DNA of 64,000 nucleotides from NCBI GenBank assembly GCA_034670405.1, contig JAXDDX010000002.1:6229501-6293500 (forward strand), read 5' to 3'. The notes under the pieces were generated by a model. The model ran no database searches. It was not told where the DNA came from and saw nothing but the letters and a program-made list of their open reading frames with translations. The position numbers were made by a program, and so were the translations under genes. Within the stretch, counting starts at the first letter, position 1. The number at the start of each line of letters is the position of its first letter. Source of the stretch: Hoplostethus atlanticus (lineage: Eukaryota; Chordata; Actinopteri; Trachichthyiformes; Trachichthyidae). Of the stretch, positions 3,001-52,479 are shown piece after piece.

Positions 3001-4915
3001 GGCTGCTGATCAATACAACTTTGTGTGAGCATAGTTTGCTTGATTTTTATAGGTCATCTTTCTTACATAGATGTTTTCATAGACAGCATTGATTGTTTGA
3101 CAATAAAAATAATAGTAATAATAAGGATTACACTGTCAAATGTCACTGCTTTGTAAACAGTGGCTTTAAGATGGTGAGAAACTTTAATACTGCTCCATAA
3201 AAAGTTTGACTTTCATTCTAGCTAGCGTTTTGTAAGAGTAGATTATTCAAATAATGTCCATTTCTTTTTGGAATGAAAATCCTAATTAGTTAGAAAAATG
3301 TAGAATTTTAATATAAGAATAATAATTTTCCTGGATATTTTTGTGCATAATGTTCAGTTCTTGGTGTGATTGAAAGTGTTTTTGTTTAATCCACATCCTA
3401 TTAGCACACTCCCCAAAGACTCTATCTCCCTGCCAGCCCTGCATATCCATATTCCTCTTTCTTATAATATCAGCATAGTAGCTGGGGAATCACATCCCAA
3501 TGATCATTATCCTCCTCAGTCATTTTGAGAGACTGGTCTTTGATGTCTCTCATATGGCGGTGATGATGTCACTAGATAGAGACTGGAAGCCTTTGGAGCA
3601 GCAGTCGATGACTTTATGGAGCGCAATGAAACGCTTAACAAATTCAGGGCGTAGAGAAAGAAACGGGCAATGTAGAGTGGAGGAAAACACATAACACATA
3701 GGATGACGAGGCTAGGCGTGGGGGTGGGTGTATGTTGGGGGGGGGGGGGGGGGTGCAGCACTATGGAGTGGGTGGAGAGGGTAAGTGAGAGAGGGCCTTC
3801 TATGGCCATATGAACACTCCAAAGGATGTGATTGGTTGCCGGGCTGTGCGTCAGCCCTTGGCAACAGGTGTGATGTCTTTAAACAGGTGGGCATAACTGG
3901 GATGAGTGGCATAGCGCCCTTGCACCGCACCCTCAATCCACTGAGCCCTGCTGGAAAGCTAAGCCTGGGCCACATGCTTCAAAGTCATATAACACCCACA
4001 CCCAACACCACCATTACCCCTCCCAACCAACCCCCCCAACCAACCCCCGGGACCACCAGCTCAGTTACCCCATATGGGTCCCACCTTCACCCCATTCCCT
4101 CGTTCCCTTTTCCCAGCGTGCCCCGAGTGTTATCTCATGCAGTCTGTGCCGGTGGCGGTAGGTGGTTGAATTCGGTGCTGTGAGTAAAAAAAGTAAGTTG
4201 GTTTTCCTTGAATGCATTCTCATGTGAACAGGAAGAGGCCAGCGGTTCAGCTGTTGTCAGTTCAATATGAATTCTTGCATCGCCAAGACCAGAATGAGAA
4301 CTACATAAAAGAAACAGGAAAAGTTTCACATCTCGCGCCTTTGCCAAAAAAGACAGCATGCTAGACCTTTGCAACCCCTTTGTTCTCTTGACTCATCCAC
4401 CTCAGATGGAGCAAGAGTGCCTGATTCACTGTAGGTCTGTTAGAAGTCAGATCTCCTGCGTTGCCTCAGTTGATTTGTTTGGTGTGATTTCCTGAAGACT
4501 GTCAGAGACATGAGAGATGCTTTCAAATTCAGAACTCCAGATTTCCACTCTGGGGGCCAAGTGAGGATTCAGAGTGAGGAGAGGAGAGCCAGCAAATGTT
4601 GACACGCTTACAGTAGCTGCCTCGCCACGAGACGCCTCAGGAATCAAACAGCTATCACACACACAAAAGAAGCCCTCTAAGTTCACTAAAACCACACTCA
4701 AAACAGGGCTTTGTTCTGCTGACATGAGAGATGACTGGATTGTTATTTGTTTTCTAAGCAGGCAGATCGCTCCCTGTCACTTCTGCTGCCGGTTGTGATG
4801 GAATAGCTAGCGCTCGTATCTCTTCCGTGAGTGAGTACTGAAGGAGACAAACAAATGAGCGGAGGAAGTTCACTAAGATTAACTTATCTTAGCATCTATC
4901 TTTTCTCCTTTCTCC

Positions 4916-4922
<7 letters not shown>

Positions 4923-4963
<41 letters not shown>
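4923..4963 (+). repeat. CT microsatellite
   Basis: About 20 uninterrupted CT units in the first mef2c intron, with a CA array 80 bp further on (5043-5075). Confidence 0.95.
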
Positions 4964-4966
<3 letters not shown>

Positions 4967-5040
4967 CTCATCGCTAACACCCACTCTCACACACCCACAC
5001 AGGCACACACGAAACAGAGACTCATTCCCCTCGTTCCCCT

Positions 5041-6111: not shown

Positions 6112-6613
<502 letters not shown>

Positions 6614-6751
6614 GCTTTGAGCAAGAAGGAGAACAAAGGCGGCGAGAGCCCGGAGCTCGAGTCTGCTCTCACCCTCACACCACGCACTGAGGAGAAATAC
6701 AAACAGATTAACGAAGAGTTTGATCACATGATTAAAACTCATAAGATACCC
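6614..6751 (+). CDS. mef2c: mef2c exon alpha2 (mutually exclusive)
   Basis: This 138-nt exon, phase 0 at both ends, encodes 46 residues beginning ALSKKENKGGESP and ending DHMIKTHKIP, followed by a GTAAGT donor. It is homologous to alpha1: TEEKYKQINEEFDHMI aligns with [16 protein letters not shown]. Alpha2 is the isoform enriched in skeletal muscle and some neurons in mammals. LTPRTEEKY keeps the TP motif known as a phosphosite region in MEF2 alpha2 exons. Compared with my recollection of the human exon it differs at about ten positions, clearly more than alpha1. The acceptor has a weak pyrimidine tract interrupted by purines, which suits regulated use. Confidence 0.96.
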
Positions 6752-9312
6752 GTAAGTACTGGGTTGACACTAAGCCGCATCTTCAGCTGGCTAACGAGAT
6801 GCTGAGTGGCCAGTAACTGTTGAGCTAACCCAGCTAACCACCATTGTTTGCCACTAGACTAAATACACCAAGTGAAAGTTAACCACAATCTAGCAGACAC
6901 ATACGGATATGTCAAGTACAACTAGCAGCTATATACTTACAGTTAAGATAGATTACACTTCTTTGATTTTGCTTGATTACAGTTGCGGAGGAGTCCTCAA
7001 ATTGAACATAACTTTAACCATAACTACCAGGCATTTCTCTCACAGTGATTGTGTGCTTTTCTCTCGTGACAAATTTTAACGTTATTGGTATTCCACCCTG
7101 AACCCATTACCCATAATGCCTTGCCTGGCTCTCACGGGAGGTGTGGTCTGCATGTGCTTTTCCTTTTCCTGCACCAAAACACAGCACTCAGTCACCCACA
7201 ACAACACAAGGACAGATGCTACGGCAATGAAACGGCAGCAGACATGCACGTGTCTTTTTCTCCCACATTACATGATGATGAAAAAAACTCAATTATCTCC
7301 CTTCAACCTTCATCACTGAAATAATGAGGCTAATGAAGCCTACATCGAACTGTAACAATCTTTTACAATGACATCTTTGTTGGTGGCCACAGGTTTTCTA
7401 GAGTTTGTTAGCCGCTGGATTTCTACAGCAGAAATTTAGAATAATGAAATCTCAACATAGTCAGCCACCAGAAACCACAAAGTAAAAGCCCCTCTCAAAG
7501 TAAACTGAGCCTGCTCTCCATTCAGAAAGCACCATATTGGAATGGTTAATGTTATAGCCATGCAGAGAAAAGAGATAATTCCATGGTAGATAATTCAAAG
7601 AGGAACAGTAGTGTCTGACAGAGCGCTGTGGACCAGGGGGAGATGTGGTTAGAAGCAAGGCGAGGGCTGGTAAACCGGGGTGGCGTGGCGGGGTGGGGTT
7701 GGGATTGGGGCTGGGTGGGGATGGGGGTGGAGCAGAAGTGGTGGGGGTGACTCTGCACACAACAAGTGGCAGTTCAGTGTGTGGTCAGGGTAGCTGCCAA
7801 GCACTGGGCCTCTGGATTGCAGGGACTGTTGAGGGGACTGTGGGGTGAGGGGGAGGAGGAAGAGTGAAAACAGGAAGGATGGCACCAGTTAAATGACAGC
7901 TTGCAGGCGAGGCCCATACACCAGTGACGGGGTGTGTGTACACAGACAGTCAGACACACACATCTACAAGCCCCCACAGTAACTGAACCACAGAGCGTAG
8001 AGCAGTTATGAGGTACAGAAACACCAACAAGGAATCCAAGATGGAAGAAATTACTGAAAATCTTCAAAAAATAAAACAGAACCAGATACACTCGCTCATG
8101 AAAGAAAGCAACCATAGCTTTTGGCTAGCCCACTCCTGCGTAGAGTTGCAGCAAAAGCGAAAAAGTGGAGAGGCCTGCGATGAAATATGGTTCGAGTAAC
8201 CCTCTTTGTGCCATGAAATAATATTTGCCCAGCAAAAAGAACATTAGCAAGGGGGAGAAAATCGAAGAAGACGAGGCAGCGCTCAGCCTCGTATCCTACT
8301 TCCACGTCAGCCGGGCTGTTGGTCCCACTGATGAGCTCCCTCCATTGCCCTGGGACACATGGCAGCAATTTAGGGCCCTATTTTCTACTTCCTTAAGCTA
8401 ACATGCAAGATCAACCACTTCCAGGGCACTCCCAAGGTTAAGCCCTTCTGCCAAGTGACACAATAAACATGACAAACTAGACGCCTGGGGCCAGGAGGCC
8501 TTGCTACCCTAGCTACCTCTACTCATGTTCCTGATGAGATTGTTGACTGATAGCCTACCACTTAAAACACACTTAGTATGAGCTCCAAGTGACAGAAAAA
8601 TACGTTACTCCTGCATATATATACAGTAACTCTGCCATGCTAATTGCATTCTCTCAAAGTTACTTTTACAGGACATATTGTGTAGATTTTTATAGCGAGG
8701 TGAAGACAGGCTGAATTATCTTTAGCTCATTTAGAACAGTGGGATGCCATTGGCCTTATTCCCAGTAAACCATAGCCTCTTTCATTTATTTAATGTAATA
8801 AACCAAGAATGTATTTCTGGGAATAAATACAGTGACCACAGCGCAATGTTTCCTCAGGTCAACCTTTTGCTTTCACCAAAGAAAATGTCATTAGACTGTC
8901 ACGGCTTGTCAGGAGCAAAACGTAAATAAGTTGCGTAAATGGTATTAGTAGCATTCGAAGTAGCAAAGAGAACGTCCATATTCCTCTTTTCATACTAGTC
9001 CTGCTCTCTCTGTTGGGTAGAGTCTGGATAGACTGGCCAAGACCTTATATCAGCTTGTGAGCATTTTGAGGTACTCAAAGAGGAGTTTTCTAAGCGCTCA
9101 CTCTCTCTTTTTTGTGCAGTGCTCCCCTTCAACATTCCTACTTGCTCATTCTTTGTCTTTGTCCTAAGAAGTTGTTTTCCCCACCAGTCGTCTGTGCACG
9201 CACGTCTATTGTTAGTTGTCCGTTTGTCCTTGTGGACTTGGGTGTCTCTTTCAGTCTCTCTTTGCCTGCTTCTGTTTTATATTCCTTTGTGTTCCTGGAG
9301 TGTGTCTAGAAT

Positions 9313-13767: not shown

Positions 13768-15110
13768 TCTCATTCATCTGTCTCCACATGCACCCACTCT
13801 ACCTCACAAAGGGCCAGCCATGAGAATGAGAGAGCGGGAAAACTGAAGAGGCAGCTGCCTCTTCGCTAATGTGAGAGTGACACTAGAACTAAGAGGGTCC
13901 CATACAAAACACACACGTGCATCCATACGCATGGCCCGCGCACAGGCAGTCAGAGAGCGCGTCTCATGAAGTATCTCATACTGTCGTACATACATACGCT
14001 TATGTTAAATATATAGCCATGCATATGCAAAATTGCATCCACACAGTACAATGGCACACAGAGTCCATGTTGTTGACATCAGTTTATACAAGCACACACA
14101 CACCACACATGCCGGCAGAGACACAAACACACGCACACGCCAGCAGTCACACACACTGTTTTTCTCGTTTTCTGTCAGACGGCCTCATTTTCTCTCACCG
14201 CTAGCGGTCGTTTACTCTTCAGATTGTTCAAATTGAGCTTTCGAGACTTTTCATTTCCAAACAACAAAAACCTCGCTCTCAAATTAAACAAAGATCAGCA
14301 AGGGAAATTGCCCAGGAAGACATCTGCGACTCATTTTCCCCTGGAGTATATGATTAGGAAATTCATTTATGTCTAACGTATAATTCCTGCCCGTCTTTCA
14401 AGTGGGAACGTCCACACAGTGCCCTGTGTTCTACCCCTTGGAAGAAGGAAGGAGAAGTAGGGGGAAAAACAGCCTGTGGGATTGGGTTAGAAACAAAGAC
14501 TACGCTGCTTGCAAGACTGCTCCGCTCTGAGATTTTAATGATGTTGCTAGGATGGTGCCCCACTGGTTTTGAGCGAGGAATGGGTGCTACCCTTGGCCCT
14601 CCATAGCTAGGGGAATGTGCATCCGGTGGCAACCCCAAGGCTGGGTCTTTGTCTGGAGGAACCACACGTGTTTAGCTCTGATGGCCAAATGATGGGTCCC
14701 ATCCCTCTGTGGTCTCACTCCCCGTAATTAGATGTTTTTACACGATTCACTGGCTGTCACTGAATACATATAGCCCTAACTGACAGTGACAGAGGTGGAG
14801 GGTGAAGTCCTTCCTGAAACAAGTGGATGCTTTCATTATAAAACTGCATATTGCAGTGGTAAGCGTTAAGGACTTATGTAAAAACAGTAGGTCTGTTTGA
14901 CCGCCTGCTCCGCCGGTTCACACCACTCTCACGAGCCACCGTGGACTTGTGGGCTAGTAAAATTTGTACCCCTGAACACAAATAATGGAGATGAGGGAGA
15001 AACACTGAAAAGTAAGGCAAAGTGAAAATGGGTTCTTGTAATTCTTAATTACGCTACATGTTCATAATGTTTCTCTGTCTGCCCCCCCCCCCCTTCTTCT
15101 GCTCTCTCAG

Positions 15111-15283
15111 GAAATGGGTATGGGAACCACCGCAACTCGCCCGGTCTGCTGGTCTCTCCAGGTGGCATGAACAAGAACATGCAGGCTAAGTCTCCCCCGC
15201 CCATGAATTTGGGCATGAACAACCGCAAACCTGACCTACGTGTGCTCATCCCCCCTGGCGCCAAGAACAACATGCCCTCCATC
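15111..15283 (+). CDS. mef2c: mef2c exon with MAPK docking motif
   Basis: This 173-nt exon, phase 1 in and phase 0 out, encodes [20 protein letters not shown] through [20 protein letters not shown] between CTCTCAG and [17 protein letters not shown] is the MEF2 docking (D) motif that recruits p38 and ERK5 MAP kinases: a basic pair followed by hydrophobic residues. [18 protein letters not shown] is essentially the human sequence. The last residues (MPSI) join either to the beta microexon or directly to the exon at 16749. Confidence 0.97.
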
Positions 15284-15829: not shown

Positions 15830-15853
15830 TCTGAGGATGTGGATCTGCTATTG
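15830..15853 (+). CDS. mef2c: mef2c beta microexon (SEDVDLLL)
   Basis: A 24-nt microexon encoding exactly SEDVDLLL, phase 0 at both ends, with AG before it and GTAAGT after it. Mammalian MEF2C, MEF2A and MEF2D share this acidic octapeptide, whose inclusion is predominantly neural and raises transactivation. Because it is eight codons, inclusion or skipping is frame-neutral. It is far too short to show up in an open-reading-frame scan; it was found by aligning to the known protein order. Confidence 0.96.
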
Positions 15854-17377
<1,524 letters not shown>

Positions 17378-17513
17378 AATATTCCCTGAATAGTGCAGAC
17401 CTGTCCTCCCTGTCTGGCTTCAACAGTGGCAGCTCCCTTCACCTTGGCTCAATGAGCGGGTGGCAACAACAACACCTCCAGAACATGCAGCATTCAGCCC
17501 TTGGCCAGCTAGG
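17378..17513 (+). CDS. mef2c: mef2c exon ([15 protein letters not shown]...)
   Basis: This 136-nt exon, phase 1 to phase 2, encodes [18 protein letters not shown], then [18 protein letters not shown], then [10 protein letters not shown], followed by GTGAGT. Human MEF2C has [16 protein letters not shown] and GWQQQHLHNMPPSALSQLG at the same place. The exon is serine- and glutamine-rich transactivation sequence. Its donor can join either the full terminal exon (18026) or the internal gamma-skipping acceptor (18122). Both keep the frame, because the last codon is completed to glycine in each case. Confidence 0.97.
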
Positions 17514-18025: not shown

Positions 18026-18121
18026 AAATTGCTCTGGCTCTCACTTATGTCAGGGTTCAAATCTCTCCCTGCCCTCTGCTCAAAGCCTGCACATCAAGTC
18101 CGAACCTGTTTCTCCTCCTAG
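18026..18121 (+). other. mef2c: gamma segment, alternative 3' splice site
   Basis: An internal acceptor TTTCTCCTCCTAG ends at 18121. Using it removes exactly 96 nt (32 codons), including IKSEPVSPP, and rejoins in frame as G-D-R. The 32-codon size and end point match the mammalian gamma region, which represses transactivation when phosphorylated and sumoylated. The coding sequence of VSPPR doubles as the polypyrimidine tract. Confidence 0.88.
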
Positions 18122-18371
18122 AGATCGCACCAGCAACACACCAGGTGGCTACGGCGGGGTGCCGCCTCCCCAGAACCCCTCGTCCCGCCAGGACTCGGGA
18201 CGCTCCCCCGTTGATAGCCTGAGCAGTTGCAGCAGCTCCCACGAGGGCAGCGACCGTGATGAGCACAGGAATGAGTTCCACTCACCTCTGGGACTGGCCC
18301 GGCCCGCCCTGGACGAGCGCGAGAGCCCTTCCATCAAACGGGTGCGCCTGTCAGAGGGATGGGCGACATGA
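18026..18371 (+). CDS. mef2c: mef2c terminal exon, gamma segment and C-terminus
   Basis: The 346 coding bases complete glycine with the previous exon and encode [19 protein letters not shown], then [20 protein letters not shown], then a P/G-rich stretch, then [20 protein letters not shown], then [20 protein letters not shown], and finally [14 protein letters not shown] with stop TGA at 18369-18371. IKSEPVSP is a phosphorylation-dependent sumoylation motif (psi-K-x-E-x-x-S-P): the lysine corresponds to human K391 and the serine to S396. KRVRL is the C-terminal nuclear localisation element. The first 96 bases form the optional gamma segment. Compared with human, [16 protein letters not shown] replaces a divergent linker; the rest is closely conserved. 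Confidence 0.98.
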
Positions 18372-20678
18372 TAGCTCTCTCCTCTCCCCGGCAGCACCCT
18401 GAGTTGCCCTGAGCCCCCAACACGCAGCGTTATGATGCCCCCAAGTCAACCTCCTTCTCTTCCTCCTCTCACTCGCTATCACTCACCACCCAACCCAACG
18501 GCCTCTCTCCTTTTATCTCTTTATCGCTGAAGGAAAGATGAGGGGCAGCCCTTTTCTAAAATCTATTTGTAATGTCTTTTTTTTCCCTTAATTTTTTCCT
18601 TTTTGCTGAGTGTGTGTGCTATACATATTGACGTTATATAAACCAGTCGGGTGTTGTAATCAGGGTTTAGGAGGGTGGGTGTTGGTTGGGACGGGGTCAG
18701 GGGATATTTTTGTCGGGGAACTATGCATAAATTGTATTGTGTGTGGATAAAAAGAATCACGTATGCATATATCTTTACACGTGTGTGTATGTGTACATAT
18801 ATGCATATCAACAAATAAACAAAAAAATGTCAGGTACTCTGTTTTACAATTTGCCTCAGCGATATATCAGTGACTAGCAAAAAGCATAAACACGAGAGTG
18901 AGCGTGTTGAGTGGAAAACACCTTAGCACTTGAGTTGGACAACCAATACATGTGTACAGTGTCAGTTTCATCGCTATATACCTTCTCTGCAGTTCTCCCT
19001 TGCAAAAATGTGTGTTAACATTAGATGATGTCATGTTGCAGGTTCAACGTATTTATGTAAATAGAGGGTCAAGGGGGAAGGGCGGGGGTCAAAAGTTGCC
19101 AGACATTACAAGATTTATTTACTCACTAAATGAAAAGCTATTATGCAACATTTGAAGGATTGTACAGGTAAACAAGCAGACCCAATAGTAGATGTGTGGA
19201 ACCTTTGATGATTCTAGCGCTCCACTTAAAGAACGGAGCTGAGCGAGGACCACCTTTTGATCTAAGAGCTACGTTAGTGTAATCGAGAAAACTCTGGGTC
19301 TTGTATTAACTATTCAGTATTAATAAACAAAAAAAAGGAAAAAATAAAAAACAATTGTACACTTGCTTATATTTTCATATGAAAGGAATACAATGCAAAG
19401 CATTTTTGTGGCTTTTTGTAGTTTCTATAAGCCAGAATGTGTTTTTTGATAGCTTTGCTAATAAGAGAGGGATAGTTCAACCAGAGGTGAAATGACAGGG
19501 CTCTCAAGCCCTGAGCCATGAAAACAGACGGAGATCCAATGCTTTGCTGAACTGTTTTCTCTTTGTAGAGGTTTGTTTTTAAACGTGTATTTCTAATTAT
19601 ATATAATAATGGTAATATTAAGAATCTTTAAAAAAAATCTGTGAAATTAACATGCTTGTGTATAGCTTTCTAATATATAAATATATATAATAATTTTTTT
19701 TGTTGGTTTCTTAGTGGAGTTTCTATGTGCAGTTGCACATATTGTCTGGTTTGTTTAATTTGAGCTCTGAACAGTGCTGTTCAGGGGTGTATTTAGACTA
19801 ACCTGAAAAACCAGCTGGAAAGTATTGCCAGGGTTTGTGTAAATGAGAAAAGACGGGCCTAAATGCTGAAAAACAACCTGTTAGTGGAAAATGTCTCGAG
19901 ACTGGAACTGGGGATGACATAGAAATAGATCTTGACTCATGAAGTACATGATTGTCATACTGATGAGGAAATAATTTACCCACAATCCATGTTTAGCTAC
20001 ATCTACGTGGATCAGATATTGCATTCTTAACCGTAATCATCTTCATTAATGTGGTTTATCCCATCAAAGGTGGGGTTTTTTGGACATAGTTTATTTTTTT
20101 ACACCTCAAATCTTCAACACAACCTTTACTTGTGTTCCGGATGTTGCACAAGTCCAGATTGAAATGGATACAGAGTTTGGAATCATATTTATGTCAGATA
20201 ATATTGCAAGCGCATGGCAATAATTATCCCCGATAATTTTTAAAAGCTGACTAGAATCTGCGTCATCTTGTGACTCCTCATGTTCCATTCTTCAAAACAG
20301 GGTTCCGCATCTTTTACTAAATGTCACTGACAGTTCAAAGTAAGATAATGAAGGAAAAAAATTGGTCATGCTGGTATGGGAGAAGCACAATTGTTTATTT
20401 TAGATAAATAGCTGTTTTGATTTTCTCTTTTTTAAAACAATGAGACTAGCCACATATCTCTCTGCCTCCCACTCCCTTATCTGCTGTCACTTAAGTGTTA
20501 TGATATTTCTATGTGCATATTTCATGCAGGTTCACTATGTTGTTACTGTATACAGTCTGTGTAGTCAGAAACAGGGGCAGAGCCTCTAACAGTGTTTTTC
20601 TCTTTTCTTTTTTTTTAATTCAATACAAAAGGTTGAGAAAAAAAAGAAGAATATTCTAGGCAGCATATGTGTGGAGAA

Positions 20679-20685
20679 ACCAAAG
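20679..20685 (+). promoter_or_regulatory. miR-9-5p 7mer target site
   Basis: ACCAAAG matches miR-9-5p nucleotides 2-8; the preceding A extends the match to nucleotide 9. There is no A opposite nucleotide 1. It lies in the inferred mef2c 3' UTR. Confidence 0.45.
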
Positions 20686-21124
20686 CCAGTGGCATTTCTG
20701 TGTTGTAAATTCAACTTTTATTTTCACATTCATTTATGGTTATTTGCAAGCATTGAAACAAAACAATAAAAGAATTTGCTCAAATGTACAATTGGTTTCA
20801 CATTTCAATTTGAATCAGTCATATGTAGCTGTAGATATTGAGCTGTATTGACATAAGCAACTTTGATGATTTATCAATGTTTTGTTGGTCATTCATCTCC
20901 CTGTGCATTGCATTGAAAAAGACTAAATGCAAAAGCTTTTTTTTTTTTATTTACAAGCGCGATCCACTCAACTTAATCAACAGAATCATTCAGGACTGAT
21001 CATGTGAAATGCATGCTTGTTGTCCACTTGATCAAAGCACATTACACACCAATTATCATGCTATGCCAACATGTCCCATTTGTTAGTGTCAGAGTGCTCT
21101 AGTTTTGATGATTTGATATTTTTA

Positions 21125-21132
21125 ACCAAAGA
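21125..21132 (+). promoter_or_regulatory. miR-9-5p 8mer target site
   Basis: ACCAAAGA is a perfect 8mer for miR-9-5p, and TAACCAAAGA (21123-21132) pairs with nucleotides 1-10 of the microRNA encoded at 32941 in this same window. It is about 570 nt upstream of the distal AATAAA. Confidence 0.6.
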
Positions 21133-21700
21133 CATGGAGAAATCTTGTCTATATATCAAATCCTATTTTTGTTTGTGTGTTTGTTTTAAATTTGAAGCCA
21201 TTCTTTTTCATCATCTGTTGATCAGTTGTTTTTTGTCATTCTTATAATAGCCTAAATCTTGGTACCTCAAAATTGACCCATGCAGTACCTCAGCTGATGT
21301 TTTGATAAGTCACTTGCAGTGCAAAGGGGAGACCATACACCTGTACAGGCATGTGTAATAACATAAAATTGCTATGGTCCCTGTATTCACATGGGACTCA
21401 TTGTTGCTCCACCTTGTTTGTGGTTTTCTTTATTTAAGTTGTATCCATGAGTTGAAAAATAATTCAAACAAATGAGTAATATCTTAAAATGCTTAAAAAG
21501 TCAGTCTGTAGTATCAAATGTAGCTTGTATAAACCTAAAATTGGGGTTAGTTGATGTCTTTTGGAATGCAAGAGCGGCTTTCAGCGGCATAAGCTGGCCT
21601 TTGTCGCCACTTGAGACTAAGATGTTATTAAATTAAATCCACATCTCTGTAACTCAAGGGACTTGATTCAGCTGTATGTAGTGAAAACGTATGGGGATGA

Positions 21701-21706
21701 AATAAA
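21701..21706 (+). terminator. candidate distal poly(A) signal of mef2c
   Basis: AATAAA is followed within about 20 nt by plausible cleavage sequence, then by TG/GT-rich DNA. Upstream alternatives are at 18814, 19322 and 20765, and a further one downstream at 22251. Confidence 0.45.
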
Positions 21707-21722
21707 AGTCTCCTCTGCTGGA

Positions 21723-22845
21723 GGGAAAGGTTATTTGTATTTTGCAGAGATTTCAGTAAAGTTACTGGCTTTCTTAGTTACCCTGATGTGAGTTGGTGTG
21801 ATTTCATTGTGTTTGTTTCTGCATGCATCTCAAAACAATAGTCACATTCATATTTTGCAGACTCAAAAACAAATGATCTTTATATGCATTTGCCAAGTCA
21901 ATGTACGGTGCCATCGAAATCACTGCAGTTTAAGACAGTATGGATTGCATGACATTGAAATAACAACGGCATCATTTTTTTACATTGTTTCTTTCCACTT
22001 ACATCAAAACAAACATGGCATTATATCATAAGTATTCATACTGCAGACATTTATTTGACATTTAAAGCCAATGTTTGTCTCACTTAACATTACAGTGGCA
22101 TCATCTCTCCCAGTTATACATGATGCTAGACAGTGCATATGAATCTTGAAGGGGAATTCATAGTGAAAAACAGATACCATGTTAATAAAAAACAGTGAAG
22201 CACAGTGAAAATGTTCCTATGAATCAGAGCTGAAACGTTTCCTAGAACACAATAAAATATTGAATACTCCAGGGTTAACTTATTCTTATTGCAATAGGTT
22301 GAACCAGTTGATTTTTTTGATTCTGGCATGATAACTGTGTAATAACCATATAGGAATCGTTTGATGCAAAGGCATTTTACTAATACTTTGTAATAACTAT
22401 AAAAACTCAGTACCTTAAAATAACAGTTGAAAGTAAAAACTGAAACTTTTTTTATTACTTTGAAAATACCATGATCAGTAACGATCTCATGTAGATACAA
22501 AGCTATAACTAGATGACGTATTATTACAGCACGTTACTATAGCAACACGCACGAGCAGAGTCATGTGCAGACACAGTTTAAATATATAAACCATATAAAT
22601 TAGACTTTTATTTAGTCTTATACAAATCGGGGTTGTTGTTTCTAAAAACATTCAAAATCCCTCAGTAGCTTTTTGATTATTTCGCAAAATGTGCATTTAT
22701 CTTCTAACGTTGCTCGTTTTATAAATATTATTTGTCTTTTTTGTCTTTTCCTCAACTAAAAACCATGAAGTATTTGTTTTTGAATATATTTCTGCCTTAT
22801 GGTGGCAAAAGAGACATTTTTAATTAAATAAATAAATAAATACAA
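21723..22845. other. AT-rich intergenic sequence
   Basis: No coding exon or RNA gene is recognised. An AATAAA at 22251 could be an even more distal mef2c poly(A) signal. Confidence 0.6.
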
Positions 22846-22848
22846 CTA

Positions 22849-23040
22849 TGATATTCCTATAATATAATCTATAATCCCTTTAGGGATTTATAATATGTCT
22901 TTGGTACTCAGTAGTGAGTTTATTCTACTACTTCATGGTATTTTTGTTTATCTCCTATATGGTATGACTTTAATATTCCTATAATAATACTTATTTTGCT
23001 GGGATATTTATATGGTATTTTATAGTATCATTGTAATTCG
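22849..23040 (+). repeat. degenerate ~110-120 bp tandem repeat, block A
   Basis: Two copies of a unit starting ATATTCCTATAAT (at 22851 and 22973, spacing about 122) are followed by TTATAATATGTCTTTGG, ACTCAGTAGTGAGTTTATT and ATGGTATTTTTGTTTATC-like segments. The same consensus recurs in block B about 1 kb downstream. No ORF is present. Confidence 0.7.
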
Positions 23041-23970
23041 TTCTCGTGTATTAGCTGATACTGTTTTGGAAGACCAGGCCAAAAAGCTGTTTCAACCGTG
23101 GTGGGTGGGCCTACCTGTCCGGGCGGGTTCTTAATACGAACTGACCTTGAAGTAAATAGAAGTCAATCTGTTAATTAATTTCCTTTTCGACAAAAGTATT
23201 TTTCAAGTCCTTAGATACGTAGCCTATTTCATTTATACGAATTTTCAATTGGCAGCATCATTTAGTGAATGTGAGTTTAAAATGGTGGAAATGTATTATG
23301 ATGGGTAAAGTCAGTCTGTGTTCTTCACGTGAGTATACCTGTAGGCTTGTATAATGAAGTAAGCCATTGCTCCTTCGTCGTGTTGAATTTAATTGCATCC
23401 CGCTCTGATAATTTCCATTTCTTTAACCATAAATGTAATGGAATGAATTCAAAATAATCTAGACTCCGTTTCCATGTTGAAATTAGTATTTACTGAAGAA
23501 GCGTTGCGGCTCTTAGCTTTTAAATGAATAAATGCTATATGTATACATTTACATTTGAAACATAGTAGCTAATTACACAATAAAAAAATGAAAATTGTTC
23601 AGTAGTCATTTACCCGGCTCACGGTGAGTCAATTTATTCATTATTTATGCAAGAAGGAGTAACCAGAAATTTGATTAAAAAATGTGCTTGAGAAAAACTT
23701 AAACCGAGAACAACTTTCTGGTGTGGATTTGATCTTAAAATATTTTCCTACACAATAAAACACAACATTAGGTTATTTGGTCAGTGGTTTATTTGATCTG
23801 AGTAATTACAGTATTAATGGAATTACAGAAACACACCTTCATCACTCACAATCTCCTGAATATTTACTAAATCTGAGGTATCGAACACATAATATTGGGA
23901 ATGTGATTTGTCCATAGTCTGGTCCAAATATTACACTAGGCGGCTGTGACATCATGCTCTTACGAAAAAT
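23041..23970. other. AT-rich spacer between repeat blocks
   Basis: About 930 bp lacking the block A/B unit, with no gene. It may be an insertion into a once continuous array, or the body of an element whose ends are the repeats. No terminal inverted repeat or ORF was seen. Confidence 0.5.
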
Positions 23971-23973
23971 AAT

Positions 23974-24230
23974 TATATTCCTATAATATTCCTATGGGCG
24001 CTTATAGTCTGTAGTACCCAATACTGCGTTTATAGTGACCTCATCGTTATTTCTGGCATTTTTATTGCCTATGGTATCACTATAATATTCCTATAATAAT
24101 CCTATAGGGACTGATAGTGTGTCTGTGGCACTCAGTATTGAGTTTATAGTGACATTAACGTATTTTATGGATTTTCTTTTCCTCATAAGATATCATATTC
24201 CTATAATATTCCTGTAGGGTTTATATTTGA
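23974..24230 (+). repeat. degenerate 110-bp tandem repeat, block B
   Basis: TATTCCTATAATA-type starts at 23976, 24086 and 24196 give an exact 110-bp spacing twice. Shared internal words include CCTATAGGGACT-like, GTGTCTGTGGCACTCAG-like, TATTGAGTTTATAGTGAC and TTTATTGCCTATGGTATCAC-like segments. It is in the same orientation as block A. Confidence 0.78.
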
Positions 24231-26590
24231 ATAGAATTCTTCTAAAATTGTTAAAGGATTACTATAGTTATTTTCGTAAGGGTTAATAAGGCCATACTCG
24301 AATGGAATGACATTTATCCTACAACAACTTTGATGAATGTGAATGTTTAATTCCAGTAACCCGGTGAAACAGACAAAGACTGATGTGACTTTCAAAAGTC
24401 ATTGTAGGCACAATATCATTCATTATCTGTCAGAAATGACAATCTGCTGTTAAATCAACATTTAGATCGTTTTATAAAGGTCAGATTAAGGCCACTTTGT
24501 CATTAGAACTGACAAACAAACAGGTCCGATACATTTAATAATCGAGCCCTTGTTAAAAGGTATAGGCACCAGGCAAATAAGAGCTTGTACGGAAAAATCA
24601 ACATAATAAGAAAATAACCACCAGCAAATTAGACATAGTTTCGGTCTATAAGGCGGTGTTAGACAGTTCTACAGCCCAATAAATAATTAAATTAAATTAA
24701 ATTAAATTAAACTAGGACACGTTAGCAATAGCATACCCACGTTTTGTATCATCTATAGGGCTTAATACTGTTGAAACCTAAGCAATTATCACGAATATAA
24801 TTACAGTCCAGTCACCAATTCCTGTATTTCATACCATCTGTATAAGTCGGTCTATTGCAGTAACGTGTAATTTATCCACTTCGGCTGTGCCAATTTGCAC
24901 TTTTAAAGAGTTACTTAACCTTCATTTAAGTGTGTGCACATGAAACTTTACTGACATTTTGAGGGCTGGTGAGTGGGGGTGGGGGGCTTCATCGACCTCA
25001 TTGAACGTCGAGCTTGGGCACCATTTTCATAATTTTCATTCTCCAAAAGCACCACTAGATGTCAGCATTTCTTTGTCTACTCCAAAACTACCCACACCCA
25101 CCCTCACCATCACCCTCCTCCTCATCCTCACTCCAGAGCCATTCAAATTAGAGGACCAGACCTAAACAGACTTACACGTCCACTCCTTCTCACACTTTTC
25201 TCTCTGCTGAATGCCAATCAAAGTATTTCGCCCTCATCATTTAATTCACATGAAATACACTAAGCCAATTTATTATCCGATGTGAAAACCTGAGGGAATA
25301 TGGAATAGTCTAGAAATAAGTGTGCTATAATAATAACAACAACAATAATGATCGTAATAATAATCATAATAATAATCATAATCATAATGTTATTATCTGC
25401 AAACACACATACATACATTGCAAACACACATACATTGCTTGACTATTGCTGCTATTGTGTAAATAAACAATTTCAAAAATTAAAAAAAAAAAAGAAATAA
25501 CCAAGATAAAATAAGTTTTGCGTCCGTGCATGGTATACTAGATAATCTCAGACATTTTAAACAGGCAGGTGTGTTATCACTGCAAAATATCAATTGTTGA
25601 ATCTCGGTGTTTCATCAAATCAAATGTCAAAACATGATTGTTTCCAATACTAAAAGATGCATGCCTATACGTTTACAAATTGGATCTATTCTGTCTGGCC
25701 TTATAATGAAGAAGATTATTTGTGAAACGAAAAATGATAATTGTGCGATTGCATCATTCTGAACGGCAAAATAAGCTCATTTTGCTTGCCTCATTTTATC
25801 AATAAAATCGACAGTTTGGATAGCCACATCAATGTAAAATAAATCCCATCTGGCGTCTTATTTTGAGACTGTATCCCATCATGCCATCTCATCAGTGTAG
25901 ATTATTTTAAATTGTCGAGGTTTTTTGTTACTCGAACACGAGGCCTTTATGGCTTGATGAAGTCGGTGAATTCAGGCATTAATCACAAAGCCACATCCAG
26001 GTTGCATTAAATGCAATTTGACATGCCTCATTCCCCTCACATGGGACAAAACACCTTTGTCCAAGTGTGCCTGTCTAATGCACGAGGGCCGAGGGACTGG
26101 ACACCAGACTGGTCTCCTCTCTAACTCCCAATACTCTGTGGTGGTAAATAATAAAAAGGTCGGTAAACTGCGACCTCCAGTCGGTGATCATCATGAGGCG
26201 AATAACACACCAGTGATGCTTGGTAACATCATTGCAGAAATGTTATTACTTTGCCCACTAACGAGTGCTGTAACGAATTACTATGCCCTATTTACATTTA
26301 AGCACTACTATACAGTTACCAACCACAAATGAAGTCGCTGCTTTTGTTATCAGCCCCTCTAAATATCAAATTGAAGTTGAATTGTCCAAAAACTACAATC
26401 TCCCCCCGCCACCCCTGGATTCGTTCTCATCATAATCAGTGGTCGTCCTCTCATAGTTTAGAGGAGAAATAGCCGTGAAGTTAACTTTTTCCCACCTTCT
26501 TTCTTTTTATCTGGCAAAAGGATGACAAGAAGAACACACGCTCACAAAAGAGCTAATTGAGAATGCAGCCGCCAATTTTGGGGCAACGGC
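24231..26590. other. AT-rich intergenic sequence
   Basis: No gene is seen. It contains an AAATT-type pentanucleotide array at 24685-24711 and degenerate AAT/ATC triplets at 25327-25390. A non-repetitive island at about 25855-26035 with ATTAAT and TAAT-containing words could be a conserved element. Confidence 0.55.
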
Positions 26591-26594
26591 GAGT

Positions 26595-26710
26595 TTAGTG
26601 TAACATATCACTTAAGTGAAGGCTTAAGTGAGTGAAGTAATCACATTACTTTTGGGATGAGTAAAGGGTAGTAAATTACTTTTTTTGGAGTAACGAGTCC
26701 AGCACCGCTG
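26595..26710. mobile_element. possible hAT-like transposon remnant
   Basis: The run around 26600-26700 has the AGTAAATTACTTTTTTTGGAG and TAACGAGTCCAGCAC style seen in many fish non-autonomous hAT-type repeats. No target-site duplication or second terminus was found, so this is a resemblance only. Confidence 0.3.
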
Positions 26711-26754
26711 TCAAGACACGCAGGTATAGGCTTAACGGGCTCTTGTGGGGCAGC

Positions 26755-27001
26755 ATGTTCTCTGCATATCTTTACGTGTGTGCCCATCTGACCACTTCGG
26801 CTGGGCGACACATCAGGCGAGGCGTTCAGGAGCAGGGTTCACATGACGATGAGGCTGGCTTCAGGGTACAGGGACTACACAGCATTTGCTTTGGCGTCTA
26901 CCACAACTTTGCCTGCCTGGAAAATGTCCTACCTAACTGGACTGAGAGAAACCCTGACCGCCAGCAGCAGCAGCACAGGCATTGGATTGTATTAACTGAG
27001 G
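26755..27001 (+). other. orphan GC-richer open segment ending at a GTAAGT donor
   Basis: A reading frame with no recognised domain stays open for about 90 codons (from an upstream TTG at 26743; first ATG at 26755) in otherwise AT-rich DNA. It ends against a consensus donor (G/GTAAGT at 27002). It includes a CAG run giving QQQQ. No good acceptor was seen upstream. It could be a non-coding exon, part of a transposon remnant or chance. Confidence 0.2.
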
Positions 27002-27178
27002 GTAAGTTGTAATTTGAAGGCTTACATCAAGACCACAGGACACGGGTCTCTATGGGTAACACCAATGAGCAGCAAATGCCATTTTTTTCTAAACAGCAAA
27101 ATAGATGGCCAATTAGAGATAATTATCAATGGAAATGTCTGTATGTTGTATTATCTGATAAATATGAATTTATATCTC

Positions 27179-27230
27179 CACGCGCAGTGTGTGTGCGTGC
27201 GCGCGCTCGTCCTCGACACCACTGCGCGTG
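27179..27230. repeat. GC-rich inverted repeat
   Basis: CACGCGCAGTG (27179-27189) and its perfect reverse complement CACTGCGCGTG (27220-27230) flank a 30-nt spacer made largely of GTGCGTGCGCGC. The stem is 11 bp, extendable with a bulge. No miRNA family is recognised. Confidence 0.6.
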
Positions 27231-28570
27231 CACGAACACCAAGGAGACAGCTTGGGCTATTGTGAATGTCAGCGCTGCGTCAATGGATTTCTTACAAACT
27301 GGGCATGAGAGTTTTTGGTTATTATTTTCCACACAGCCCGTGTCCTTCTCACGCTGAAATAGGTTATGAGCCAGTGTTAATCTGGAAGTATTACCTCCTC
27401 AGTATTACCTCTGAATCTCTTCTATTGTTTGTCCACCAGAGACCTCTTTGTTCATGCATGCTGTATTTGAGTATTCAAAAGCTACAGCATATTTACATCA
27501 TTTAGATTATAAACAATATCTAGACTAGAGCCCACGACGTCAGATATCATGTCATTGTAGACAACATTTCATTAGCCTATAATGTCAATATGTACTCTGA
27601 AATTTGGCTATTAAATGCCCTCGCTGCTTCTTGGTAGCCTATACACGGACTTTACATCTATCTGCATCCCAAAGCATGTAAAAGCAGGATGAAATAAACA
27701 CTGATAGAGAAAATGTGTAATGCAAATCTACCCACTGAATATGCATCAATATTAAAAATAATACGCACACCAGAGCCAACAGCGTCGGAGCTTTGAGAAT
27801 GGCGGAGCGGGTCGTCTCATTACGCATGGGCGGTTTTCCACGCAGGAGCCACGGTTCCCCTTCTCTTCATGTCTCCCGTCTGCCCCGTTCACATTAACGG
27901 AGCCTCTTGGAAAAGCAAACAAGGCTATGTTGGCTTTCAAACCGGCAATCAAACACCCAAGAACTGGCTGGGGGGAAATTACTCCGACTGCGGCCGGACG
28001 GACTATGTAGTAAGCGGGATTTGCATATTTTGATACGCTAATTGCCTTGATGTATTTAAATATGGCTGCACGTAGCTGATATGCTTGTCTACGTCATTGA
28101 ACGTGCCCTCGCTGCTAGACTAAAACGTGAATCCGGTTGAGTCTAATGGATACGCCTGCAATTAGGCAAAGCGGGGGGATTATATGAGAGAGGATGCTTT
28201 GTTTGCTCTGTCTTTTCAAAGTCACATGATGTTTTCTGGGATCTGTATGCCATGACATCTTTGGGGAAAAAATAGAATTTTAAAAAATCTTCTAATAATA
28301 TCTGCAAATTGCAGCTAATGAAAATAATAGGACATGTGTTGTGCGCCAATGACAGAAATAGGTGATATTCTAGCAGACTAAAGCGTTCCAGCTCTTACTG
28401 CAGAAAAATGTCTAGAATTATAATATATTCACAAAAGCAAAAAAAAAAAAAGTATGCCATCACCAAGAGAATTAACTTAAAACAGACATACTGGTAGGCT
28501 ACTGACAAGTAGGTCACCTCATTGTAACTTTTTGAAAGATTTCTCTTTCTTCCCTTCTCTCTCTAGGCTA
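27231..28570. other. intergenic sequence with candidate regulatory island
   Basis: No gene is recognised. A GC-richer island at about 27770-28030 is flanked by AT-rich DNA. It ends in a POU octamer ATTTGCAT at 28019-28026. Confidence 0.5.

Positions 28571-28626
<56 letters not shown>
28571..28626 (+). repeat. compound GT/GA microsatellite
   Basis: A (GT)n tract switches directly to (GA)n. Confidence 0.95.
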
Positions 28627-28631
<5 letters not shown>

Positions 28632-29022
28632 TGCGTCTTAGTCTGAGATTACCTTTTATTAGGCTGCTGGGAGCAAGGTGAATTAGTAGAATAGGTCTAC
28701 TGTACACACAGCCCAATCAAAGCATTTTGAATGAACTTTACAGTGCCGTGCTTTCCACAACGAGCTCTTTTTTTTATCAGTGACCCCATTCTAGACTTAG
28801 TTTGGGAATTGCATGTAGCAAATAATTTCCGCACTGTCTGGAAACCGGTAAATGCGTTCCGTTTGTCAGAGCGTGTTAGCGAAGCGCCTGCAGCAAATTC
28901 ATTACCAGCCAACCGCCAGGCTCACTTCGTAACCTGGTCTGGGAAAAGGAGGGAAAAAGTCCACGCCAAACCGCGAACAATGCCTCCTCAGTTCGTGCCT
29001 GCAACAAAAGAGCCGAGGGAAC

Positions 29023-29491
29023 TTGTTTGAATTTCAGAGCACGTCCTCTCCTCACACAGAAGGATGGACTTTACATCCCCTCCTCCTCCTTCTCCCCATC
29101 ATCATCATCATCACCCCCTCCCTCCTCATCCCCACCACCACTGGGCAAAAAAAAAAGAAAGAAAAAAACTTGCAGACTGAGAGCTCAACTGTGCATGCAC
29201 TTTTCTATTTGGTGCTTGTAGACGTTATGGGAAAGTTGTCTCTCTCCCTATACATCTCTCTCCCTCTCCCCATCCCTCCTTCCTTCCTCATTCTCTCCGT
29301 CTGTCATGTGCTTGGGATATGCTCATGCTTTGCACACAGAGCAGCTGAAGCACGCCTAATGCATGGCCACCGAGTGTTAGCGGCAATTTTAAAGTGACGG
29401 CTGGGATATTTGAGGGGAGCCTACATGACGGACCCCACTGAACGTCGCTCTCCTGCTCCTGCTTGGGACGATTTCTGATCACCGTCAGGAA
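29023..29491 (+). ncRNA. candidate first exon of the miR-9 host transcript
   Basis: A non-repetitive block ends in GGAA followed by a perfect GTAAGT donor (29492-29497). It lies 2.8 kb before a strong acceptor (32280) and 3.4 kb before miR-9 on the same strand. In mammals, MIR9-2 is processed from the lncRNA LINC00461 on the same strand as MEF2C, so a spliced host here is expected. The 5' limit is arbitrary; no TATA box is obvious. The short ORFs are low-complexity and differ in frame, so I treat it as non-coding. Confidence 0.4.
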
Positions 29492-29608
29492 GTAAGTACA
29501 ACTTTTGTGCCCACCGTAATCGGCTGCGTGGAGGCAATTGTGTGCGTAAATATTATAGACTGTGCGCAAAAGTGAAATACCAAGATTTCCGCAAAAGAAA
29601 AGCTGTGT

Positions 29609-29609
<1 letters not shown>

Positions 29610-29641
<32 letters not shown>
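29610..29641 (+). repeat. GT microsatellite
   Basis: About 15 GT units in the candidate first intron of the miR-9 host. Confidence 0.95.
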
Positions 29642-29644
<3 letters not shown>

Positions 29645-31211
29645 GTTAAGCGCTAATAGGGATTGATAATTCGTGATTGGCTTCCATGTATTTAGGAGGA
29701 AATGTGAAGTTTGTCATCGTGAAAGGTTTCTTACACAAGGACGCACTGATTAGATCTCTTGGCACACGCACAGGCAATATCATACTTCAATTAACCGGTA
29801 ATTTAATTCACTTCTGCCTGAGATGTGATTATATACTAATAGTGGATTGTTTAATGCTGTGTAGAATGGCCAACGCCTCTCATTGCACTCTGCCTTTTTG
29901 CAATTAAGTTCACTTTTGAGTCAACTCGCTTCATTCCCACAATCCAAAGACTCTGGTTGTCTGCTTTTGTTCCTCAAGTTAAAAAAAACCTATCACCTTG
30001 TTAAAACAGAGATGTTGACTGAATAAGCCTTTTGATATGATGGGAATATACCGCTGAGGCGCCCAATCTGTAACCTGAGTTTGTGTGGACTCGATGTAGT
30101 GTGAGAAATGGTGTGAATTCGGACGGGATGTGTTAGAGATTTTTTTTATGTGAAATGGAGAAAAATACGGGCAGACTCATTTGAACACAAAGGGACTCGT
30201 CAGCAATTCAAAGGGGAAAAATCTCAGTTTATTCACACTGTTCTAAGCAAAATGAAACATTTACTTTAGTGTTTTGTTACATCAAACAAGTTGAGGCGCT
30301 ATGCTGAAACAGATAAAGTGAAAACTTCACTTTGCAATGAATCAATAACGTCACCAAAATCGTCATACAAGGTCTGAAATCTAAAAAGAGTTCGAGGTAT
30401 TGTTTATCCATGTGTCACACGCGCACGAAAAGCACGATGCGCTCAAAGATAACGTGATCAGTCGCGCACGAACAGGATGACAGCCGTGGGATATTTTTGG
30501 TTTCTCGCCACTGTACATCATTAACCTTCATGCGAAAATCTAATTTAATTAAAAAGGACCAGCAGGTGGTAAGATGAAAAGATTGGCGTGTTGTGAGTAA
30601 AGTGTGGCCTCTGTGCTGGAGGCCTACACTGAAGCCTACTCTCGTGTACAGTCCCTTAATGAGCAGCACGTATTAATGTTGATCTATGAATGACAACGCT
30701 CCAAAGCTATCTTACAGCACAGTACTGTATACACCATTCATCTGATTTACACCCAGGGAAGACAACCATATGCCAAGATGATAAATCAGCTTCGAGGAGC
30801 TACAAAAACGGCAATGCACCTACTAGAGGTAAAACACAGGAGCAATATTTGCCTAAATTACTGAGTTTTGAGTATTTTTTTCAGTATAGAAGTAGAACAC
30901 ATATTTAGTCTACTTGCTCGTGTTAGGTGATGCAGTGGGAATATATTCGTGTTCTGTACGCAAGGATGACGGAGAGGTAGAGAGATAAAGGTGCAGGAGC
31001 TGTGACTATGAACATTTACAGCACAAAGTGATGTATCGAGGAAGTTATCCTTTCGTATTCGGTGATGAAACGCACGGGCCTTGTGAATCTTCCACGCTCA
31101 TTAAAACGCCTCTATTTAGCCCCGCCCACCGATGAAGCCACAGTGAACTTGTGTGGAAGGATGAAACCTGTATGAAGTGAACGGGGCTACTTTATATGCA
31201 CTCAAAAATAC

Positions 31212-31219
31212 TGACGTCA
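31212..31219. promoter_or_regulatory. perfect palindromic CRE (TGACGTCA)
   Basis: The full consensus CREB site lies 1.7 kb upstream of the miR-9 hairpin. Human miR-9-2 is reported to be controlled by CREB and REST, which makes the position meaningful. A GC box lies about 95 bp upstream and a TTTATATGC TATA-like word just before it. Confidence 0.55.
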
Positions 31220-32280
31220 AACAATACGGCGTTAATTTGTCACCTGATATTTCAGTTCCCATATGTCAGTAACCACACACATACACATACACACACCCAC
31301 ACACACAGGCAAACACATTAAACGGGGTAACTGTTGTCGCAGGATAACTTTAATGTGAATTGGGATTAATTGGGATATTTTCAGGGACAGTACGTAATTA
31401 AAGTTGTGCACAAGGAGATATAAACTGAGTCGGTGTCCTGCAGTTGCATGCTGCTGCGCATGATCCATCACATGTTCCAATGCCACTGTTATTGTTGTCT
31501 CAGTTACAAAGATCCCATGTATTGACCTAGTTTGTGTTGAGCTACTGGTCTGTTACTTATATTTCAGTGGGAAAATGAGCGGGTTAATACACGTAAACGG
31601 TAAAGCGCCTGGTCTTATTTTTTTTGCGTGAGGCGACATCGCCAGTAGCCTACCTGAATACCATTGTAGTCTACTACCCTTCGGATGCGACGATGAAAAA
31701 AAACAACAAAACAAAACACGAGGCTTATAGGATTTCGACGCAAAACCGAGTCCGTGAGAGCAATTTAACTTCTGCGGTGCGCTACTTTGGTATATCTGAT
31801 GAACGAGAGCGAAAAGCAAGCGAGGAGTGTGTTATTGCTGCGAATAGAAAGCATAGCCTACGATGGATAGAGAGGATGCTGGCGCTCAGGCTGCTCCAGG
31901 ATGCTCTCCTCCTGGAGCTGTTTCGTTTTTATTGTTTAATCGGTGCTATTTCTGATTGCATCTTCCATTAAAAAAAAAACAGAGTTGACCGCTCTCATTC
32001 TATATATAAAAACATACATGTTTTCCCTGCCATCCATTTTCATCTGTGAGAGAAGGCGTGCAGACTGTTCGCTGCAAGGCGGACTTATCCCAGTGCGCTC
32101 TCTGTAATGGATGGAGATTGTGCATGGATAGGAGGGTGCATTTGCGATTTTTTCGTGACATCACCGTAGTTACATTGTAGTGGTCCGAGGCCTTTGACCT
32201 CACCGGGGTTGGTCCACATTTTGGCCACCCCCAGCCCCCCTATCCTTTGGGGATGGCCCTTATTCCCCGACTCTTTTCAG

Positions 32281-33020
32281 ACTGACCGACCAAGCAGCCT
32301 GCAGAACGGACCCTTTGGCTCAGAGTCATCGGCTTTCTCCGTCTTTAAGGACATGCCGGATATGAACGGACAACTTGACACTCTTTGGCCAAAAACAAGC
32401 TGCTCTCTTCATAATCCGAGACATTCGCGTCGTAATTCCCTGTGTCGTTATTGCACTTTCCACAGGAAACCGGATTTCCCCCCCTTCTCTACCGTGTATC
32501 CTCTCCGCCGGCCTCACAGGATATCTATTGCTACTGCCACAACGATTTAATAGAGGCGAAAGAGCCTTTTGTGGGATTGAAGCTATTTGCATTGCAAATT
32601 AGGGCCCCTGTGCAAGGATGACTGCACCTTAACTGCGATTTTTCAAGGCCTACTTCAACTCAGTAATATTGGTTAATGTCAAGTGAATATGACATTAACA
32701 TTGGGATTATATATCTTTTTTCGAAGAATTCCCACCTTTTACGCTGGGTGTGTAACAGTTCGGGGCTGTTCTAGTGGCCCTCAAAAAGCGAATATAAGGA
32801 ATATAATGCACAATGTGACTACAAAAAGGACACTGATTACTTTTGTTTAATATGTTTGAGTTCTGAGAGAAGGAAACCCGGAGAACAGAAGAGGAAATGT
32901 TCATGTGGATTATTTCTGAAGAATAGGAAGTGGGTTGTTATCTTTGGTTATCTAGCTGTATGAGTGTTCTGCTCGTCATAAAGCTAGATAACCGAAAGTA
33001 AAAACTACTTCCAGACTCGT
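32281..33020 (+). ncRNA. candidate miR-9 host exon containing the hairpin
   Basis: It begins after a strong polypyrimidine acceptor (TTATTCCCCGACTCTTTTCAG ending 32280) and extends at least through the miR-9 hairpin. No donor or poly(A) site was confidently placed. It contains an ATTTGCAT octamer at 32585 that is part of a 15-bp palindrome. An ORF of 118 codons at 32194 starts upstream of the acceptor and has no recognisable domain. Confidence 0.4.
32926..33013 (+). ncRNA. mir9-2: pre-miR-9 hairpin (mir-9-2 type)
   Basis: The 5p arm at 32941-32963 is the mature miR-9-5p sequence (starts TCTTTGGTTATCTAGC). The 3p arm at 32978-32999 is miR-9-3p (starts ATAAAGCTAGATAACC). A 14-nt loop lies between them. 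The flanks GGAAGTGGGTTGTTA and AAAACTACTTCC pair and resemble human MIR9-2 more than other miR-9 copies. miR-9 is a neural microRNA acting in cytoplasmic RISC; it controls progenitor proliferation and neuronal differentiation through targets such as her/Hes, REST and TLX. Linkage to mef2c on the same strand supports orthology to MIR9-2. Strand is set by the mature sequences. Confidence 0.98.
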
Positions 33021-51995: not shown

Positions 51996-52000
51996 GTGTA

Positions 52001-52416: not shown

Positions 52417-52479
52417 TGCACGTCTATCTGAGTGATCGTGTGCATTTTTGTGTGTGACTGTTAAGTGTATGAAGGCAAA

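Follow-up and report, generated by a model that had tools for sequence, protein, structure and literature searches.

The window analysed here is a stretch of 64,000 nucleotides (G000:C2:6229501-6293500) of the 632.8 Mb genome of Hoplostethus atlanticus. Its plus strand, to which the window coordinates below refer, carries the 3' half of mef2c, the gene of a neuron and muscle regulator; its last coding exon (18027-18371) encodes the C-terminus RLSEGWAT and ends with the stop codon at 18371. A hairpin of the brain microRNA mir-9 follows on the same strand at 32932-33007, around 11 kb from the inferred end of the mef2c 3' untranslated region (UTR). Within the inferred extent of that UTR, canonical miR-9 seed sites are present, and miR-9 sites recur in other mef2 genes of the same genome. 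Identification of the gene as mef2c relies on the beta exon peptide SEDVDLLL (15830-15853, found by peptide match), on exons matching HJURP_C, which we take to cover MEF2 exons, and on the C-terminus, in which SEGWAT is taken as a mark of MEF2C. The peptide SEDVDLLL is assigned to the Mef2C beta exon in PMC3979806.

The hairpin matches Rfam model RF00237 over its full length (positions 1-78 of 78) with a score of 78.2 bits, above the cut-off of 58.6, and has a predicted fold of -41.5 kcal/mol over 100 nt and an intact 5p sequence. Its minus strand also scores 60.2 bits because the hairpin is nearly symmetric. By its position beside mef2c, and with the order and strand of human mir-9-2 and MEF2C as the term of comparison, it is probably the mir-9-2 ortholog. 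An earlier sequence-only reading had placed miR-9 downstream of mef2c on the same strand, and the Rfam match bears this out. Seven mir-9 hairpins were found in the genome, all seven with an identical 23-base mature sequence; scoring covered 64 of 96708 first-look candidates, and the count may therefore leave out diverged copies.

Two miR-9-5p sites lie downstream of the mef2c stop codon, as that reading had also described. The first is a 7mer-m8 match, ACCAAAG, at 20679-20685 (UTR position 2308). The second is an 8mer, ACCAAAGA, at 21125-21132 (UTR position 2754), which extends to TAACCAAAGA at 21123-21132 and can thus pair with nucleotides 1-10 of miR-9. These are the sole CCAAAG hexamers in the inferred UTR, and no match to miR-9-3p (AGCTTTA) is present in it. 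Flanking A+U content is 62% for the 7mer and 73% for the 8mer, compared with 63% for the UTR overall. Some pairing at miR-9 nucleotides 15-19 is predicted for the 7mer, and none past the seed end for the 8mer. In brain CLEAR-CLIP data, auxiliary pairing of miR-9 at nucleotides 14-22 is frequent; Mef2 is not named in the main text of that study (PMC4674787). Cooperative action of the two sites was considered and rejected: they are 446 nt apart, which is too far for cooperative pairing of microRNA sites.

Whether both sites belong to the transcript depends on where the UTR ends. AATAAA signals downstream of the mef2c stop codon are found at 18814, 19322, 19343, 20765, 21701 and further on. The long UTR considered here (18372-21725, 3354 nt) has its end set by the signal at 21701-21706, which is followed by a T/G-rich stretch: T/G content in the 50 nt after this signal is 64%, the highest value found, with 42-60% after six other signals inspected. 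A further AATAAA signal lies past this end, at 22251. The 7mer lies ahead of the proximal signal (20765-20770), so that a transcript ending there would keep the 7mer and lose the 8mer; inclusion of the 8mer requires the distal signals.

Comparison with a second mef2c gene, found on contig C77, reveals collinear blocks at UTR positions 659-683, 2855-2872, 3212-3243 and 3353-3377 (window 19030-19054, 21226-21243, 21583-21614 and 21724-21748, the last at or just past the end). The third block is a 32-nt element identical at all 32 positions (32/32; E 1.3e-6 in the genome search); it contains a miR-21 heptamer at 21589 and is recognisable in one mef2a copy (88% over 26 nt). Conserved blocks in the tail support a mef2c UTR that reaches about 21.7 kb, in which case both miR-9 sites would lie inside it. 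The human MEF2C UTR is 4363 nt long and has a miR-135b site at 2590-2596 that was validated by reporter assay (PMC4505325). The fish UTR contains a miR-135 heptamer, AAGCCAT, at 21195-21201 (UTR position 2824; chance P ~0.25), and no 7mer in the window mef2c UTR corresponds to the human miR-499a-3p site. For miR-21, PMC13278933 mentions Mef2c as a target predicted by TargetScan.

Site numbers in the mef2c UTR were compared with those in 2000 or 4000 dinucleotide shuffles of 18372-21725 (3354 nt). ACCAAAG occurs twice where 0.284 are expected (P 0.034), and this expectation is close to the figure of about 0.2 given in the sequence-only reading. One 8mer is seen against 0.071 expected (P 0.07), and one TAACCAAAGA against 0.007 (P 0.0075). 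For two sites of whatever 7mer class P is 0.083, and for two sites including an 8mer it is 0.026. A UTR that stopped at the 20765 signal would hold one site (P 0.19), and one that stopped at the 22251 signal, two (P 0.050). In the rest of the window, among overlapping 3354-nt stretches taken at steps of 10, two ACCAAAG were found in 0 of 5394 on the plus strand and, on the minus strand, in 0 of 5722 away from the hairpin and 219 of 6065 when the hairpin was included. Judged by the background density of the remaining window, two occurrences have a P of 0.030.

The comparison changes when miR-9 is treated as one microRNA among many. In a scan of 82 microRNA families, miR-9 ranks third in the mef2c UTR, after miR-24 and miR-221 and just ahead of miR-218. 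Five families have at least two sites (shuffle mean 2.72; 13.7% of 3000 shuffles reach 5), three have at least two sites including an 8mer (mean 1.42; 17.6%), and four are at P<=0.05 (mean 1.73; 9.4% of shuffles reach 4). In 62.4% of shuffled mef2c UTRs, some family is as striking as miR-9. The site pair is therefore mildly unusual for a microRNA fixed in advance and unremarkable for one chosen afterwards. This speaks for a rival explanation, namely that an old synteny coexists with seed matches that arose at random and have no biological effect on mef2c; we consider this explanation possible, if somewhat doubtful. Of all families, miR-24 stands out most in the mef2c UTR, with two heptamers at 18409 and 19511, one of them an 8mer (P 0.004, uncorrected).

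Additional evidence comes from the other mef2 genes of the genome. Six mef2 last exons were found, including that of the window. The second mef2c, on C77, also ends in RLSEGWAT. The genes on C1 and C10 end in MDTWVT and MDSWVT, and those on C6 and C66 in LDAWVT and LDTWVT; from these C-termini, we take the former pair to be mef2a and the latter mef2d. A weak match on C33 (E 0.67) was left out of the mef2 set. The limits of all six UTRs are inferred, with ends picked from conserved blocks and polyadenylation signals, giving lengths of 3400 nt (window), 2560 nt (C77), 3205 nt (C1), 2300 nt (C10), 5010 nt (C66) and 3660 nt (C6).

miR-9 heptamers are present in five of these six UTRs. ACCAAAG occurs at 2308 and 2754 after the stop codon in the window gene and at 2094 in C77 (mef2c, two and one), at 1044 in C10 and not at all in the inferred C1 UTR (mef2a), and at 2566 and 4908 in C66 and 3566 in C6 (mef2d, two and one). 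Further occurrences past the inferred ends (5628 in C77, 4598 in C10, 6931 in C6) were not counted. Altogether, seven sites are found against 1.87 expected (P 0.0032, or 0.0026 if the C10 UTR is cut at 1600 nt), and miR-9 ranks second of the 82 families. When the window gene is omitted, five sites remain against 1.6 expected (P 0.024, fourth of 82), a recurrence that speaks against chance for a microRNA fixed in advance. Because the sites recur in mef2 UTRs beyond the window, targeting is favoured: the idea of mild miR-9 control over mef2 mRNAs is strengthened by the mef2 genes outside the window, mef2d most of all, within the small counts that one genome offers. In the six-UTR ranking miR-221 is first, miR-132 third and miR-135 fourth, and five of the 82 families are at P<=0.05. 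Five miR-132 heptamers (GACTGTT) lie in the mef2d UTR of C66, on the reverse strand, within the 5010 nt that follow the stop codon.

Conservation between gene copies offers a second line of evidence. Conserved blocks were defined by E<=0.05 in three copy pairs, and contain 252 identical heptamers. Five of these are microRNA heptamers from the 82 families, where 1.0-1.3 would be expected: miR-21 in mef2c, miR-148, miR-9 and miR-103 in mef2d, and miR-135 in mef2a. The mef2d miR-9 site, TTGTACCAAAGTATCCA, shows no difference between the two copies and lies inside a block of 258 nt at 87% identity. A conserved miR-9 heptamer would be expected 0.003 times from block composition, or 0.015 times under uniform heptamers (252/16384), and this is the other observation that chance explains poorly. 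The block itself, of 258 columns, is a distal one (C6 UTR 3393-3641; C66, reverse strand, 4742-4993), and miR-9 and miR-148 heptamers are common to both copies.

The mef2c sites behave differently from the mef2d site. Neither of them lies within any block conserved with the C77 copy, an observation that fits random origin. The miR-21 site of mef2c does lie inside such a block, so that the mef2c conservation test had some power. In C77, ACCAAAG at UTR 2094 precedes the shared element (C77 UTR 2402-2433). This occurrence was rejected as the counterpart of the mef2c 8mer, as no blastn match with E<10 covers it and a MAFFT alignment put other bases opposite. Judging from these comparisons, the mef2c miR-9 sites look young or fast-moving, and the mef2d site older.

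The sequence-only reading had gone further and proposed a possible cis-linked circuit, to be checked by asking whether sites are kept in the miR-9-linked mef2c paralog only. The C77 copy answers this in the negative, as it has a site and no mir-9 was found on its contig. In its fullest form, such a circuit would be a dedicated negative feedback in which MEF2C activates the adjacent mir-9 gene, miR-9 represses mef2c, and alternative polyadenylation at 20765 or 21701 sets the exposure of the 8mer. Several observations are compatible with it: the UTR has two sites, one of them an 8mer, parted by two polyadenylation signals; rat cells show MEF2C acting on miR-9-2 (PMC3979806); and the three of six mef2 genes with mir-9 at 100 kb or less from the last exon hold five of the seven sites. 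Against these, mir-9-linked genes (five sites in 12.1 kb) do not clearly differ from the unlinked group (two in 8.1 kb). The sites of the mir-9-linked mef2c copy are not conserved in position, and the mature miR-9 identical at seven loci also argues against a private circuit. Geometry varies as well, since the mir-9 genes near mef2d are opposite to it in strand and lie 5' of its last exon, at 35 kb on C6 and 97 kb on C66; on C1, mir-9 is 2.9 Mb away from mef2a, and none was found on C10. A dedicated mef2c/mir-9 loop in cis is thus unlikely, and in the detailed form given above it seems to us quite improbable.

The explanation that we favour combines an old mef2/mir-9 synteny with mild repression in trans of several mef2 mRNAs by miR-9, and we give it an even chance of being correct. 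miR-9 made from any of the seven loci would be loaded into Argonaute and might slightly lower the long mef2c isoform through the 8mer and the 7mer. The closeness of the two genes would give miR-9 no special access to mef2c mRNA, and the mef2c sites would be lineage sites, gained and lost. In the other direction, MEF2C protein is known to drive the miR-9-2 promoter, which implies that any mef2c/miR-9 loop would be negative feedback. The earlier proposal of a feed-forward loop needs qualification: it would be of the incoherent type under a shared activator, and becomes negative feedback if MEF2C activates miR-9-2. That miR-9 may target mef2c is favoured by the recurrence of sites in other mef2 UTRs; the mef2c pair, taken alone, is near chance.

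Several points weigh against repression in trans. If the miR-9 site common to both mef2d genes is counted once, because the second copy is not independent, four sites remain outside the window gene against 1.6 expected (P ~0.08). For mef2d, the UTRs were taken to end at the conserved block containing this site, a choice that favours the count. Correction for 82 families raises the six-UTR P of 0.0032 to ~0.26, and a heptamer in a block of 87% identity would often be kept without selection on the heptamer itself. The accessibility of the mef2c sites is ordinary (8-nt percentiles, 61st for the 7mer and 49th for the 8mer; 14-nt percentiles, 14th and 47th), as would also be expected of chance matches. 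In published work, a TargetScanS query was made for Mef2C/miR-9 feedback, and HDAC4 was the target taken forward (PMC3979806). Lastly, knockdown of LINC00461 left 37.7 and 39.3% of miR-9, together with 82.8 and 77.9% of MEF2C (PMC5663582): MEF2C fell rather than rose with the loss of miR-9, an observation confounded by cis effects.

A broader speculation places the whole mef2 family under negative feedback from mir-9 genes whose linkage to it would predate the vertebrate genome duplications. MEF2 would activate the neighbouring mir-9, and miR-9 would repress mef2 through sites fixed in mef2d and turning over in mef2c, in opposition to the positive HDAC4 loop. We regard this as improbable, if a little less so than the dedicated mef2c circuit. 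Should mef2 mRNAs indeed be repressed by miR-9, the two neighbours, both regulators of neuron differentiation, would control one another, with a sign opposed to that of the HDAC4 arm already in print. The site that the mef2d copies share is a better place to test this than the mef2c sites that were noticed first.

Linkage of mef2c and mir-9, and activation of miR-9-2 by MEF2C, are already published. In human, MEF2C lies beside mir-9-2 and MEF2D beside mir-9-1, and dre-mir-9-5 is the zebrafish ortholog of mir-9-2 (PMC3123655); the mouse has the same mir-9-2/Mef2c locus (PMC4585502). The fish locus is alike in this respect and differs in that miR-9 sites in mef2 UTRs, seen here, are not discussed in the available portions of those two papers. 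No validated miR-9/MEF2C link was recognised among the literature matches listed, and miR-9/MEF2D was not searched for. The MEF2C-miR-9-2-HDAC4 loop involves the same two genes, with miR-9-2 promoter activity dependent on MEF2C in rat cells; HDAC4, a miR-9 target, is the repressed gene there, and the loop is positive, whereas direct repression of mef2c would make it negative (PMC3979806). Zebrafish miR-10 and its linked Hox genes (PMC2148072) are alike in outline, as a microRNA gene lies beside a possibly repressed transcription factor gene; repression is reported in the title of that paper, while the mef2c/mir-9 case is known here from sequence alone.

The idea of shared mef2c/mir-9 regulation, also raised in the sequence-only reading, finds partial backing in published data. 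MEF2C is listed as a gene that the regulatory block of mir-9 might control instead (PMC3123655), co-regulation of MEF2C and miR-9-2 at the chromatin level has been suggested, with a remark on their proximity (PMC3979806), and the joint decrease upon LINC00461 knockdown points the same way. On the other side, two zebrafish enhancers near mir-9 genes drive expression that is miR-9-like and not mef2-like (PMC3123655). In the mouse, Visc-2 deletion reduces miR-9-2 by ~30%, with no significant change in Mef2c (PMC4585502).

Upstream of the window hairpin, a MEF2-like (also TATA-like) motif, CTATATATAA, is found at 32000-32009, around 0.9 kb away. It is one of 14 MEF2-like matches in the window, two of which (27752 and 32000) lie within ~5.2 kb upstream of the hairpin; these are raw counts. 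A perfect cAMP response element (CRE), TGACGTCA, lies at 31212-31219, 1.7 kb upstream of the hairpin, and is likewise a raw match. CREB and REST are reportedly named as regulators of human miR-9-2 in the title of one reference. One weak RE1-like match, with 6 of 21 positions mismatched, is located in the mef2c UTR.

Exons of mef2c were recognised at about 6.2, 6.6, 9.5, 15.1, 15.83, 16.8, 17.38 and 18.03 kb. The coding exon at 15095-15280, with approximate limits, was identified by resemblance to MEF2C, and the approximate limits of the penultimate coding exon (17377-17513) come from splice sites assigned by eye. The MADS-box peptides searched for within the window were not found. A pattern for the MEF2C C-terminus matched two bacterial records of metagenome-assembled genomes, the first of which was rejected as MEF2C, its preceding frame being unlike MEF2C; viral_contigs scans gave no match. 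Two mef2c exons, at 6202-6420 and 6602-6805, both match one segment of Pfam HJURP_C, and are presumably alternative alpha exons. Further downstream, a minisatellite at 52000-52420 (32-base unit, 13.2 copies, 98% matches) gives rise to spurious long open frames on the minus strand.

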